Assembly: GCA_010672585.1 (NCBI GenBank)
Contig: JAAHGF010000005.1
Span: 1 to 64,000, forward strand
DNA: 64,000 nucleotides
Source of the DNA: Okeania sp. SIO1I7
Lineage (GTDB): Bacteria; Cyanobacteriota; Cyanobacteriia; Cyanobacteriales; Microcoleaceae
Direction: 5' to 3'
Shown: positions 25,756-59,740 of the stretch, one piece after another
Layout of the letters: each line of letters opens with the position of its first letter
Position numbering within the stretch: position 1 is the first letter of the stretch
Translations under genes and position numbers: made by a program
Notes under the pieces: model-generated
Seen by the model: the letters and a program-made list of their open reading frames with translations, nothing else
Database searches by the model: none
What the model was told of the DNA's origin: nothing

Positions 25756-25925
25756 TGTATTTATTTCCTAGTTATATTTACTTCTTTAGTAATTTGATCT
25801 TTTCTGTGACGGGTTTAATACCCCATCGTCAACAGGGTGCTTAAAATTGTTTGGGGTTTGAATTCATAAGCAATCTTCCCTTCTGCCTTCTGCCTTTTTC
25901 AAATGGCCTTTAGCAGCCACTTAAA

Positions 25926-55256: not shown

Positions 55257-57329
55257 ATGAAAATTCTAGTTGTAGAAGATGATCGATTTATCGCCGAAAC
55301 TTTAGCTGATGCCTTAACTGAACAACTTTTTGTAGTTGATATAACCACAGATGGTCAAGCAGGTTGGGAGCAAGCTCAAGCCTGCGATTATGATTTAATT
55401 TTATTAGATGTAATGCTGCCTAAATTAGATGGTATTACTTTATGTCAGAAGTTACGTTATTTTAATAAAAACATTCCTATTTTACTTTTAACAGCTCGTA
55501 ATAACAATCAAGATAAAGTAAAAGGTTTAAATGCTGGAGCTGATGATTATGTAGTTAAACCTTTTAATTTAGAAGAGCTTTTAGCAAGAATTAGAGCATT
55601 ATTGCGGCGGGGAAACGAGTCTGCTTCTCTCATCAAAAAATGGGGTAATTTATGTTTAAATCCTCAAAATTGTGAAGTTACTTACAATAACAAACAGTTA
55701 AATCTTACTCCTAAAGAATATGAAATTCTAAATCTGTTTATGCACAATAATCAAAGAATATTTAATTGTAGTGCAATTTTAGATAAAGTTTGGAGTTGGG
55801 AAGACACTCCTACAGAAGATACAGTTAGAGCGCATATTAAAGGTTTAAGAAATAAATTAAAAGCAGTAGGTGCGCCTAGTGATTTAATCGAAACTGTTTA
55901 TGGTTTAGGTTATCGGTTAAAACAAGTTGAAGAAGGAAGAAGAAAGAAGGAAGAAGAAGGAAGGAAGAAGGAAGAAGGAAGAAGGAAGAAGAAGGAAGGA
56001 AGAAGCAAAAAGTGGATGGGGGTTCAAAATACAACCAATTGTAAACACTGTTTATGTGGCAGGGTATTAAACTCAAAAGAAAAAGATAAAAATAATTTAC
56101 CAGTCAATAATAATCAAATAAAAGATCAAGAAAAGCCTCAAAAATATCAGGAATCTCAACAAAAACTGCAAGATTCCATCAGTAAAATATGGGATAGATT
56201 TAAAGGAGGTATTAATGAGCGGATTGATGTACTAGAACAAGTAGTAGTAGCTGGAAAAAATGAAATATTAGAGATTGATTTACAAAGAAAAGCACAACAA
56301 GAAGCTCATAAATTAGCAGGTTCTCTAGGTACATTTGGTTTAGTAGATGGCTCAGATTTAGCTAGAGAAATAGAAAGTTTATTGGCAGCGGAAAAGCCTC
56401 TTAATTATAGCGAAATATTTCATCTATCTAAATTAGTAAAAAGTCTATGCAACAAGATAGAAAAGCATAGTAATATCGACAAAGAAAAAAGTGATAATCA
56501 ACAGATAAAATATCTCGATTGTCAATATTCTATTCCTATTGTTCCAGAATGTAAATTATTATTAATACTAGACAAAGATAGTTTATTCGCCAAACAATTA
56601 ATTGAGGAGGCTGTCACAAAAAAAATACAATTTAAGCTGGCTCCAGATGTTTTAATAACCACAGATATAGATGCTTATATTAATCATAATTTAAACAATA
56701 GTTTACAAGATTTATCATTTTGTCCTAATGTAGTTTTACTTGACCTTGAAGTTGCTGCTAATTCAGAGGAAATATTAGGCCAATTTTCTAGTCAGATGCC
56801 ATCTGTACCTGTAGTTGTACTTAATACTAAAGGTGAATTGAGCGATCGCGTAAAAATTGCTAAACTAGGAGCATCAGCATATCTAAAAAAGCCATTACCC
56901 GCAGCTCAAGTTATAGACATAGTATTAGATATCTGGCAAAAAAATCAGACTTTAGCAACTGTGATGATTGTAGATGACGACCTGCAAATTTTAGAGAACA
57001 TCGAACAGATACTAACGCAGTGGGGAATTAAAGTTGTAACCCTGAGTGATGAGCGATATTTCTGGACAACCTTAGAAAATACAGTGCCAGATTTATTAAT
57101 TTTAGACATAGAAATGCCATATTTTAATGGAATTGATTTGTGTCAAATTATTCGTAACGATCCACATTGGAATTGGCTTCCTGTTATATTTCTGACAGCT
57201 CATTGTGACCCTATTATTTGTCATCAAGTTTTTACTGCTGGTGCGGATGATTATATCTGTAAATCATTTAAATATTCTGATTTAATTACTCGTATTATTA
57301 ATCGGATTAAACGTAGTATAAGTGTTTAA
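55257..57329 (+). CDS. Multidomain response regulator (REC-winged helix-HPt-REC-REC) with inserted cassette
   Basis: 690 aa. REC1 1-115 (phospho-acceptor Asp51, Lys101), OmpR-type winged helix 128-222 (LNLTPKEYEILNLF ... TVRAHIKGLRNKL ... TVYGLGYRLK), HPt 310-405 (phospho-His351 in QEAHKLAGSLG), REC2 433-560 (Asp496), REC3 568-685 (Asp617, Lys669). A transcription factor able to take part in a phosphorelay. Between winged helix and HPt lies a foreign-looking segment (225-278): EEGRRKKEEEGRKKEEG.. then WMGVQNTTNCKHC...VLNSKEKD. A very similar segment occurs in the next gene. A family A MITE ends 30 bases before the start, so the local promoter region is MITE-derived. Confidence 0.92.
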   Translation: MKILVVEDDRFIAETLADALTEQLFVVDITTDGQAGWEQAQACDYDLILLDVMLPKLDGITLCQKLRYFNKNIPILLLTARNNNQDKVKGLNAGADDYVVKPFNLEELLARIRALLRRGNESASLIKKWGNLCLNPQNCEVTYNNKQLNLTPKEYEILNLFMHNNQRIFNCSAILDKVWSWEDTPTEDTVRAHIKGLRNKLKAVGAPSDLIETVYGLGYRLKQVEEGRRKKEEEGRKKEEGRRKKKEGRSKKWMGVQNTTNCKHCLCGRVLNSKEKDKNNLPVNNNQIKDQEKPQKYQESQQKLQDSISKIWDRFKGGINERIDVLEQVVVAGKNEILEIDLQRKAQQEAHKLAGSLGTFGLVDGSDLAREIESLLAAEKPLNYSEIFHLSKLVKSLCNKIEKHSNIDKEKSDNQQIKYLDCQYSIPIVPECKLLLILDKDSLFAKQLIEEAVTKKIQFKLAPDVLITTDIDAYINHNLNNSLQDLSFCPNVVLLDLEVAANSEEILGQFSSQMPSVPVVVLNTKGELSDRVKIAKLGASAYLKKPLPAAQVIDIVLDIWQKNQTLATVMIVDDDLQILENIEQILTQWGIKVVTLSDERYFWTTLENTVPDLLILDIEMPYFNGIDLCQIIRNDPHWNWLPVIFLTAHCDPIICHQVFTAGADDYICKSFKYSDLITRIINRIKRSISV
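55929..56090 (+). repeat. In-frame cassette in the response regulator gene
   Basis: gttgaagaaggaagaag run, then ggatgggggttcaaaatac, accaattgtaaacac and gggtattaaactc...gaaaaagata. The same order and largely the same bases are found at about 58430-58756 in the kinase gene. Confidence 0.8.
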
Positions 57330-57331
57330 TT

Positions 57332-59740
57332 ATGCAACTAATTAACTGTAAAAATCAAAAAAATAGGATGAAAAAAATGCCAAGTATTACTGAAAATCAA
57401 ACCAATTTAATAGAATCTTTAAAAAATGCTAATGCTCAATTAAAAGCAGAAATTAGGGAGCGTCAAAGAGCAGAAAAAGCACTACAAGAGCTAGTAGAAA
57501 AATATCAAAAAACATCTTTACAACTCCGAACTTTAATTAACGCTATGCCAGATATTGTGTGCTTTAAAGATGGTACAGGTAAATGGCTAGAAGCTAATCA
57601 ATCAATGCAGGAATTATTTGAAATAGAAAAAGTAGATTATCGTGGTAAATCAGATATTGAATTGGGAGAAATTAGTAGTTTTTATCGAGAGGCTTTTTTA
57701 TCTTGTCATCATAGCGATCGAGAAGCATGGAAGAAAAGAACTTTGTCTAGGGGTGAAGAAATAATTCCCAAACGAGATGGCAGTGTCAAAATTTATGACG
57801 TAATTAAAGTACCGTTATTTTATGAAGATGGAAAACGGAATGGAATAGTTGTTTTGGGGCGTGATATTACAGAGAAAAAACAAACAGAAAAAGTGATGAT
57901 TAGATTAGCTTCTATAGTAGAATCCTCTAACGATGCAGTTATTGGTAATACCTTAGAAGGAATTATTTATAGTTGGAATTCAGGAGCAGAAGCAATTTAT
58001 GGTTACTCTATTTATGAGGTAAAAGGCCGTTTTATTTCTATGTTAGCTGTGCCAGAAAGACCAAATGAAATTTCCCAAATTTTAGCAAATATTAGGGCAG
58101 GAGCTAGTATAAATAATTATGAAACTGTACATATTAGAAAAGATGGTAAACATATAGATGTAGCTTTAACAATATCTCCAATCAAAGACACTGAAGGTAA
58201 TATTATAGGAGTCTCAACTATTGCTCGGGATATAAGCGATCGTAAGCGAATAGAAAAATCTTTTGAACAGCTTCGTTACCAACATAAATTAATATTAGAT
58301 TCAGCGGGAGAAGGAATTTGTGGAATAGATATATTGGGAAAAATTTCTTTTGCTAATCCAGCCGCAGCAAGAATGACTGGTTATACAATTAAAGAGCTGG
58401 TAAATAGTGACTGGAGTTTGATAATTTCTGGGGTTGAAGAAGGAAGAAGTAAGAAGGAAGAAGGAAGAAGTAAGAAGGAAGAAGAAAGAAGTAAGAAGGA
58501 AGAAGGAAGAAGTAAGAAGGAAGAAGGAAGAAGTAAGAAGGAAGAAGGAAGAAGTAAGAAGGAAGAAGGAAGAAGTAAGAAGGAAGAAGGAAGAAGCGCT
58601 GCGACCCCGCGTCGGCGACAGACGCAAGGGAATGCGCACCAAGAGAGGAAAAAATTGATGGGGACTCAAACTCAAACCAATTGTAAACATTGTGTAGACA
58701 GCGGGGTATTAAACCTCAAAGAAAAAGATACAGTTAACAACAAAAATGATAAATTTTCAGCACAAAAAAATAACTCAGATAGTCAAGTTACAACAACTTT
58801 AAAAAAAGGTATAGTCTGCCAAGTTACTGATGAATTTATTCAGCGACGAGACGGTTCACATTTTCCCGTAGAATATGTAAGCACACCTATTTTAGAACAG
58901 GAAAAAATTATTGGTGCAGTTGTAACATTTAAAGATATAACAGAACGTCAAGCAGTCGAACAGATGAAAAACGAATTTATTTCTGTTGTGAGTCACGAGT
59001 TACGCACTCCTCTTGCTTCTATTCACGGTGCTTTAGCTTTATTGAAAAGTGGATTACTTAATCAAGCGCCAGAAAGAGGTAACAGGATGCTAAATATTGC
59101 CATTGCTAACACAGACCGTTTAATACGGTTAATCAACGATATTCTAGATTTAGAACGCCTTCATTCCCAGCAAGTAACAACGCTGAAACAAACTTGTAAC
59201 ATTGCTGAATTAATGCTCCAGACAGTAAATGAAATGCAACCTATTGCAGAGGAAGCAGGAGTTAATTTGTCAGTAAGAACAGTGGATGCTAAGTTGTGGG
59301 GATGTCCCGACCAATTAATTCAAACCTTCACTAACTTACTTAGTAATGCCATCAAATATTCCCCGAAAGGAACAACTGTCTGGTTAACTGCCAACAAACA
59401 ATTTATCAATATAAATCATACTTTTAGCTCCGATAACTTCCCTTCAACAGTTAAAACCAAATGCACTAAAGCAACTACCTGTAATATTCATCATAGCTAT
59501 CAAGTTTTGATTGCAGTTAAAGACCGAGGGCGAGGTATTCCTGCTGATAAGATAGAAAGTATTTTTGGTCGCTTTCAACAAGTTAATGCTTCTGACTCTC
59601 GCCAGAAAGGAGGAACAGGTTTAGGTTTAGCCATTTGTCGCAATATTGTCCAACAACATCAAGGTAAAATTTGGGCTGAAAGCACTTTAGGAGAAGGTAG
59701 CACTTTTTTTGTAGCCTTACCAATTTTGGATGAGGAGTAG
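57332..59740 (+). CDS. PAS-domain sensor histidine kinase with inserted cassette
   Basis: 802 aa (an internal ATG at 57368 is an alternative start). N-terminal coiled coil, PAS1 about 67-180, PAS2 190-302, PAS3 315-545, HisKA with His562 (SVVSHELRTPLAS), HATPase with N box (FTNLLSNAIKYS), G1 DRGRGIP (738-744) and G2 GTGLGLA (768-774). No membrane helix, so a cytoplasmic sensor. It follows the response regulator by 2 bases, so the two are surely partners. PAS3 is split after LIISGV by residues 369 to about 495, with seven-residue EEGRSKK repeats, a basic stretch, then LMGTQTQTNCKHC...VLNLKEKD; PAS resumes at KKGIVCQVTDEFIQRRDGSHFPVEYV. Confidence 0.93.
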   Translation: MQLINCKNQKNRMKKMPSITENQTNLIESLKNANAQLKAEIRERQRAEKALQELVEKYQKTSLQLRTLINAMPDIVCFKDGTGKWLEANQSMQELFEIEKVDYRGKSDIELGEISSFYREAFLSCHHSDREAWKKRTLSRGEEIIPKRDGSVKIYDVIKVPLFYEDGKRNGIVVLGRDITEKKQTEKVMIRLASIVESSNDAVIGNTLEGIIYSWNSGAEAIYGYSIYEVKGRFISMLAVPERPNEISQILANIRAGASINNYETVHIRKDGKHIDVALTISPIKDTEGNIIGVSTIARDISDRKRIEKSFEQLRYQHKLILDSAGEGICGIDILGKISFANPAAARMTGYTIKELVNSDWSLIISGVEEGRSKKEEGRSKKEEERSKKEEGRSKKEEGRSKKEEGRSKKEEGRSKKEEGRSAATPRRRQTQGNAHQERKKLMGTQTQTNCKHCVDSGVLNLKEKDTVNNKNDKFSAQKNNSDSQVTTTLKKGIVCQVTDEFIQRRDGSHFPVEYVSTPILEQEKIIGAVVTFKDITERQAVEQMKNEFISVVSHELRTPLASIHGALALLKSGLLNQAPERGNRMLNIAIANTDRLIRLINDILDLERLHSQQVTTLKQTCNIAELMLQTVNEMQPIAEEAGVNLSVRTVDAKLWGCPDQLIQTFTNLLSNAIKYSPKGTTVWLTANKQFININHTFSSDNFPSTVKTKCTKATTCNIHHSYQVLIAVKDRGRGIPADKIESIFGRFQQVNASDSRQKGGTGLGLAICRNIVQQHQGKIWAESTLGEGSTFFVALPILDEE
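58436..58756 (+). repeat. In-frame cassette with 21-bp minisatellite in the histidine kinase gene
   Basis: About eight copies of a 21-bp unit (gaagaaggaagaagtaagaa plus g) to about 58594, a GC-richer piece (gctgcgaccccgcgtcggcg ...) to about 58648, then gatggggactcaaactcaaa, ccaattgtaaacattg and gggtattaaacctc..gaaaaagata as in the regulator gene. Confidence 0.82.

Follow-up and report, generated by a model that had tools for sequence, protein, structure and literature searches.

Two copies of one insert in neighboring genes

The window, that is, the whole stretch of 64,000 nucleotides analysed here, belongs to a genome of 9.48 Mb in 109 contigs (G000) and carries on its plus strand two adjacent genes that each harbor an insert. 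The first gene (55257..57329), open over 690 aa, encodes a response regulator with the organization REC-winged helix-HPt-REC-REC, in which Pfam recognizes response regulator, Trans_reg_C and Hpt domains, and the second (57332..59740), open over 802 aa, encodes a sensor histidine kinase with the organization PAS-PAS-PAS-HisKA-HATPase (Pfam PAS, HisKA and HATPase). The insert in the regulator (copy 1; 55927..56085, plus strand) is 159 bp or 53 codons long, begins with TTGAAGAAGG and ends with AAAAAG. It is made of a purine, GAAGAAG-like array recognizable from the sequence (55927..56006, plus strand) and a core (56007..56085, plus strand) that scores 62.0 bits with nhmmer, the match (56007-56088) extending into the tetranucleotide ATAA (56086..56089, plus strand) which junction comparison places as the target at the right end. 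The insert in the kinase (copy 2; 58434..58727, plus strand) is 294 bp or 98 codons long. Its purine array (58434..58595, plus strand) is built on a 21-nt unit (GAAGAAGGAAGAAGTAAGAAG-like) and is followed by an unrelated second dispersed repeat (GCGCTGCGACCCCGCGTCGG..., 58596..58647, plus strand), nested in the copy and sharing its motif with the flanks of other copies, and then by the core (58648..58727, plus strand; 72.4 bits, the match at 58648-58730 again running into the target). The target remnant next to it is ATAC (58728..58731, plus strand), where three congeners (G002, G003 and G004) have ATAA. A third, diverged copy was found by the element search on the minus strand (25805..25866), outside any long ORF.

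The limits of both inserts were drawn from empty sites elsewhere. With a slash marking the junction, the regulator reads AAACAAG/ACAAGAATAATTT in other genera (for example G008), and the kinase reads TATGGAG/ACCAAACTAAC in G034. An earlier note on this DNA had seen the same cassette in frame in both genes and, indeed, the two inserts are homologous, in frame and multiples of three in length, and both genes are open. The position between the winged helix and HPt which it gave for the regulator is also correct. In the kinase the note had placed the cassette inside the third PAS domain; the insert is present in that gene, but the Pfam scan puts it downstream of the third PAS match (PAS_8, residues 319-366), upstream of HisKA (545-612). 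An AlphaFold2 model of the split PAS, made from 5 alignment rows, had a mean pLDDT of 41.7 and was unusable. When twenty operon regions were compared (4 from Okeania and 16 others), the regulator insert was found in all five Okeania including G000 and was absent from all 8 alignable regulators among the 16 others, while the kinase insert was likewise present in 5/5 Okeania and absent from 16/16 others, so that the cassette-free orthologues that the note had proposed to look for do exist.

A dispersed repeat family

The element joins an array of purine heptamers (TTGAAGAAGG...) to a core of some 82 bp, the last bases of which are AAAAAG, and its consensus can be written TTGAAGAAGG(heptamers)GAAAAAGTGGATGGGGACTCAAACCCCAACCAATTGTAAACACCGTGTAGACGGTGGGGTATTAAACCCAAAAGAAAAAG. 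The genomic copies predicted by the earlier note are numerous: nhmmer placed the element at 118 positions of G000 at E<=1, at 94 with 25 bits or more and at 79 with 40 bits or more, all of these being lower bounds obtained by scanning the retrieved loci of G000 and counting copies as distinct by genome coordinate. A pattern made of the 25 bases at the 3′ end of the core, allowing up to 3 mismatches, matches the genome 74 times and the reversed control pattern 0 times, which is far more than chance would give. BLAST-type searches gave at least 52 matches in G000 with copy 1 (40 of 156 candidates scored) and at least 49 with the consensus (40 of 195 candidates scored).

The family is centered on Okeania. 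The exact 25-base pattern was found in 60 stretches across the genome-contig collection, 59 of them in four Okeania and one in a Clostridia MAG, which we take as a chance match. Among 98 genomes (our own and its relatives) the consensus matched 11 at E<=0.001, strongly in all five Okeania, at about 1e-20 in G016, G021 and G034, which represent another genus of the same family, and weakly in G008, G011 and G058. The four congeners correspond to Okeania hirsuta PAB10Feb10-1 (G003) and the MAGs SIO3B5 (G001), SIO2B3 (G002) and SIO2C9 (G004). Of five loci inspected outside Okeania, two hold an in-frame sense copy, in a PEP-synthase-like gene of G034 and in an intein within the ThyX gene of G016.

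Copies inside genes

We counted a copy as internal to an ORF when a stop-free frame of at least 100 codons extended at least 90 nt past both of its ends. By this measure 34 of the 94 copies of G000 lie in 19 ORFs and the other 60 elsewhere, and all 34 are in sense orientation and in one common frame. All but one of the host ORFs are 292 aa or longer (18/19); the exception, L182, has only 103 aa and was outside the Pfam scan. Loci from four named Okeania genomes contributed 85 distinct copies scoring at least 40 bits, with 48 in ORFs (47 sense and 1 antisense) and 37 outside, these in-ORF counts referring to orientation only, as the frame anchor was used for G000 alone. The sole antisense case (L279, 183 aa) looks like a spurious ORF.

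By their Pfam domains, the hosts in G000 are the window's own regulator and kinase, a further two histidine kinases, proteins of the PAS-GGDEF, TPR-GT61, TPR-GT41 and WD40 types, CobN, CbiG-CobJ, PEP-synthase-like and phosphorylase-like proteins, and two proteases, one PatG-like and one of the CAAX kind; four hosts had no Pfam family above the cut-off. One of the two further histidine kinases (L167) is a doubtful host, its copy being near the N-terminus where it may precede the real start. CobN and CobJ also scored above their NCBIfam cut-offs (TIGR02257, 1644.9 against 822, and TIGR01466, 315.6 against 246). In about 18 proteins the added peptide is of the form (V/I/L/T)EEGRRKK..KWMGTQTPTNCKHPVDGGVLNPKEKD-like. 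With its copies in one orientation and one frame in many intact genes, the repeat appears to lengthen the proteins by a charged segment rather than to destroy them.

In the consensus core a single frame is open in each orientation, and the antisense one gives a hydrophobic peptide. Among full-length copies the sense frame is open in all 30 of the genic ones, against 18 of 35 non-genic ones, while the antisense frame is open in 17/30 and 23/35, respectively. A sense frame open in every full genic copy is what would be expected if genic copies were selected for translation. The same result weighs against a loss of the segments, by intron-like splicing or translational bypass, before they can have an effect, a device that gene-tolerant mobile elements sometimes use: all in-ORF copies keep the frame, whereas 17 of the 35 full non-genic copies do not have it open, and a search of Rfam at the locus returned no family of note (best E 0.38). 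We consider such removal extremely unlikely. The genic copies would instead be translated through, and they would persist because they landed in permissive linkers and because, in the sense frame, the array encodes a peptide that is hydrophilic and charged and the core is free of stops.

Empty alleles within and outside the genus

Filled and empty alleles were searched with host peptides joined across the junction, for 10 sites in 12 genomes and for 8 sites in 10 genomes. Among the matches listed, six sites are polymorphic within Okeania. The CobN and hybrid kinase sites are filled in G000, G001 and G002 and empty in G003 and G004; the GGDEF site is also filled in G000-G002 and empty in G004, with G003 absent among the matches listed; and the L176 site is filled in G000-G003 and empty only in G004. 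Conversely, the L244 site is empty in G000 and G002 and filled in G003, G004 and G001 (a split match in the last), and the L236 site is filled in G001 and G004 and empty in G000, G002 and G003. The PEP-synthase-like, CAAX protease, phosphorylase and CbiG-CobJ sites are filled in 4/4 congeners and empty in several other genera. An apparent empty allele of TPR41 in G001 was left out of the count, because the DNA there begins with a heptamer array. On a two-gene tree, in which one node has a support of 0.47, patterns such as that of L236 require repeated gain, precise loss or exchange.

All five Okeania are filled at most of the sites examined, as they would be if the segments were an ancestral domain or linker lost by other lineages. 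However, the junction is empty in outgroups and in part of the congeners, and the same sequence occurs in about 18 ORFs of many families as well as in intergenic DNA. The genomic copies already refute this explanation, to which we give practically no credence, and none of the observations that the earlier note had named as fatal to a mobile repeat (segments in all orthologues, no cassette-free alleles, no genomic copies) was made. That the cassette is a mobile repeat inserted in frame, as the note had proposed, is now almost certain, with both cassette-free alleles and many genomic copies found.

The linker of CbiG-CobJ (L178, L229, L230 and L231) is occupied by the element in Okeania and by inserts of unrelated, partly repetitive sequence in G016, G034 and G011, so this linker may be a hotspot open to several repeat families.

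Junctions and the insertion rule

Ten empty/filled pairs gave junctions at the DNA level; PatG, L168c, L169, L170a, L170b, L175 and AAA_L245 are outside this set. The inserted DNA spans (T/C)TGAA to AAAAAG (AAAAG in some copies) and lies exactly 5′ of an ATAA-like tetranucleotide. The empty target is ATAA in six of the ten sites: CTA/ATAATATT in GGDEF, TGA/ATAATC in CobN, CAG/ATAATT in L244, CAG/ATAAAA in L236 (as read in G003, with CAA on the left in G000 and G002), TAC/ATAAAA in L176 and TAG/ATAAAA in the PEP-synthase-like gene. It is ACAA in the regulator (AAG/ACAAGA), ACCA in the kinase (GAG/ACCAAA), ATGA in the phosphorylase (TTG/ATGAGT) and AGAA in the hybrid kinase (CAC/AGAATT). No target duplication is evident at any of the ten junction pairs. 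Where a G precedes the site (6/10) the junction is ambiguous by one base, and the cut could equally be set one base further left. Flanks near the junction are exactly identical for GGDEF (G004 compared with SIO2B3) and for CobN (G004 compared with G001 and G002); the remaining eight pairs have at least one substitution or come from other genera.

By inspection, insertion took place after codon position 1 at 10/10 sites, splitting GAT or GAC in six, AAT in two, CAT in one and CAG in one, so that the first base mostly belongs to Asp or Asn codons (8/10 sites). Only in that codon phase does the open sense frame of the element fall in register. On the left side, the protein would then become (V/I/L/T)EEGR.., and the right side would rebuild Asp. 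ATAA also follows the right end in 43 of 63 readable copies of G000 and in 56 of 65 in congeners, the signal ending there; in the congeners, and in some of the G000 copies, the search pattern already covered the first two of these bases, and the last two are independent of it. The left end is less uniform, being called TTGAAGAA in 31 of 78 copies of G000 and variant or unclear in the others.

Growth and constraint after insertion

The inserts differ in size between species. The kinase insert has a single core in G000 and G002; in G003, G004 and G001 its units stand in tandem and number three or four. In the PEP-synthase-like gene the insert ranges from 270 to 1266 nt among the five Okeania. 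A TPR protein of 2362 aa contains ten copies and one fragment. Heptamers and whole units would expand after insertion in multiples of 3, through slippage or recombination.

In the regulator, pN/pS was 0.52 for the insert and 0.46 for its core, compared with 0.26 and 0.47 for the left and right flanks, and in the kinase it was 0.59 for the insert and 0.83 for the core, compared with 0.22 and 0.34. Values for the inserts above those of the flanks indicate that constraint is relaxed, not absent. The earlier note had proposed that the cassette adds a charged helical spacer and a CxxC motif to both partners of one signalling pair. A rival explanation would make it an adaptive signalling module selected in both genes. 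Both genes do carry it in all five Okeania, and the pN/pS of the regulator core is close to that of the right flank. However, the same insert occurs in 17 other ORFs of G000, including cobalamin and other metabolic enzymes, the kinase core evolves with a pN/pS exceeding both of its flanks, and the number of copies varies from one to four between species. As for the CxxC, the regulator keeps it in 5/5 Okeania and the kinase does not (CKHC, CKHC, CKHS, SKHC and CQHH across the five), and the motif is absent from the insert peptides of the 17 other host ORFs. The two-component pair is not special among the hosts, a functional CxxC is not supported, and we regard an adaptive module in the pair as very unlikely.

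How the element may move

We consider it likely that the segments are copies of a dispersed, non-autonomous mobile repeat of Okeania, translated through in genes and perhaps mobilised by a Y1 transposase. The last part is the weaker one: the element would have moved as single-stranded DNA through a Y1 (HUH) transposase acting in trans, as suggested by the minus strand, on which it is found 3′ of TTAT with an end that is typically TCAA, as in IS608. IS608 inserts 3′ of TTAC, is cleaved at TCAA on its right side and favors C at +1 (PMC5934647). The Okeania element resembles the IS200/IS605 group in its minus-strand insertion 3′ of a tetranucleotide (TTAT) without duplication and in the TCAA right end of its TTGAA-type copies, and C follows the target on the minus strand, that is, at +1, in 6/10 sites.

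The differences are also clear. The element is too short to contain a Y1 gene, and Y1 genes lie elsewhere, with 10 matches in G000 and 84 across the five genomes. An autonomous parent with the ends of the element was found at none of the 32 Y1 loci examined (8 of our own genome and 24 of congeners). Weak matches at L304 and L308 were rejected as a parent transposon, that of L304 lying inside a coding region, presumably a gas-vesicle-like one. Three short hairpins can be drawn in the element, and two of them, H1 and H3, are found with at most one mismatch in 34/43 and 38/43 copies, as could befit the subterminal hairpins of IS200/IS605, but without significant covariation. Pairing was 82.1%, not above the 81.6% of shuffled alignments, and RNAalifold keeps one 3-bp stem, so we rejected a reading of the element as a structured RNA. 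A left guide pairing with TTAT is not evident, TTTT preceding the left hairpin.

As a side observation, a complete, separate copy of the element is found near a decayed Y1 transposase gene in G004 (C264, L364).

The position of copies next to genes brings in another explanation. Among the 60 copies not internal to ORFs, 20 adjoin a sense ORF (80 codons or more) that stops in their left end or within 30 nt of it, and none has the antisense equivalent. Coding selection alone does not explain this sense bias outside ORFs. Spread through an RNA intermediate, by reverse transcription of sense transcripts as is reported for cyanobacterial small dispersed repeats, would account for it, and also for the 18 sense against 2 antisense copies found between co-directional gene pairs. 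On the other hand, a Y1 transposase would fit both the TTAT/TCAA ends and a target that is a fixed, unduplicated tetranucleotide, and sense copies at gene ends may arise because the ATAA target forms part of many TAA stop codons. In a smaller list of 18 gene-end sense copies, 5 read into the element and 3 use its TGA as their stop. We think an RNA intermediate unlikely, and tentatively hold the Y1 mechanism to be the best single one. A fuller scheme, which we offer only as a possibility, is that of a single-strand (Y1-type) element whose whole body is translatable and which enters genes 5′ of ATAA-like sequences, one base into a codon, acting as a genus-wide linker that can be moved, expanded and precisely removed.

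Comparison with known repeats

To our knowledge, small repeats that invade proteins in frame have been described mainly in Rickettsia and in some REP-bearing bacteria. A full-text literature search, judged on titles and abstract openings, found no description of in-frame, protein-invading repeats in cyanobacteria, although Elhai 2008 could contain related cases. What appears to be new is that cyanobacteria show such an invasion, that it reaches about 18 genes in a single genome, and that sister species carry empty alleles and insertion follows a sharp rule. This makes it testable how such elements move and how proteins gain new disordered linkers. It is also a warning that some protein segments which look specific to Okeania are repeat DNA.

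Cyanobacterial small dispersed repeats (SDR) are often embedded in heptamer (STRR) arrays, and those of Elhai 2008 are reportedly 21 to 27 nt long. By this description, the Okeania element is similar in being a small cyanobacterial repeat tied to heptamer arrays. It differs in the length of its core, in the array that forms part of it and in its hallmark, residence in frame in proteins.

Rickettsia palindromic elements (RPE), among them the in-gene repeats of CGTC type in R. conorii, are short dispersed repeats found in frame in many likely functional proteins (PMC3733652). The Okeania repeat is like them, by description, in lying in frame in many ORFs as well as elsewhere and in having orthologues without the insert. 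It differs from them in being made of a heptamer array and a core, read in sense only and in one frame, in having an ATAA target without duplication and tandem growth up to 1266 nt, and in residing in cyanobacterial genomes of about 9 to 11 Mb. As to palindromic structure, the three short hairpins described above can be drawn, with pairing no higher than in shuffles. The cyanobacterial counterpart of RPE imagined in the earlier note is thus borne out in the way the element works, though its architecture is another one.

The GTAG/CGTC REPs are small non-autonomous repeats of which some lie in genes and which sometimes supply a stop codon to flanking ORFs (PMC3733652). The Okeania element shares with REP/RAYT systems its small size and non-autonomy, the presence of some copies in genes and a proposed Y1-type transposase. 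In contrast, it has no GTAG or CGTC terminal tag, its ends being TTGAAG and AAAAAG with GTAG only inside the core; this core is about 82 bp long, and no Y1 gene with the same repeat was seen among the 32 loci.

Variant copies and nested repeats

Several copies depart from the consensus. Some non-genic ones (for example L011, L016 and L038) have AAAATAAAAAG at the 3′ end, which creates a stop in the sense frame. In L128 (1444-1526) the first hairpin segment is inverted, GGGGTTTGAGTCCC replacing GGGGACTCAAACCCC, with the frame still open, and in L143, L124, L141, L151 and L156 a longer alternative segment, with about 25 nt extra, replaces the first hairpin, as if modules had been exchanged. Nested in the element are other dispersed repeats, of the GCGACCCCGCGTCGGCGACAG type and TCCCCCCTTGCCCCCCTTTGAAAGGGGGG (which reads HPPLPPFERGE), and the reading frame runs on through them, as at 58596-58647 in the window and in L174, L217 and L222. 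Finally, in the ThyX gene of G016 (PF02511; L301) a diverged copy on the reverse strand, at about 1504-1584, lies in frame in the intein (PF14890), a mobile repeat within a mobile protein element.
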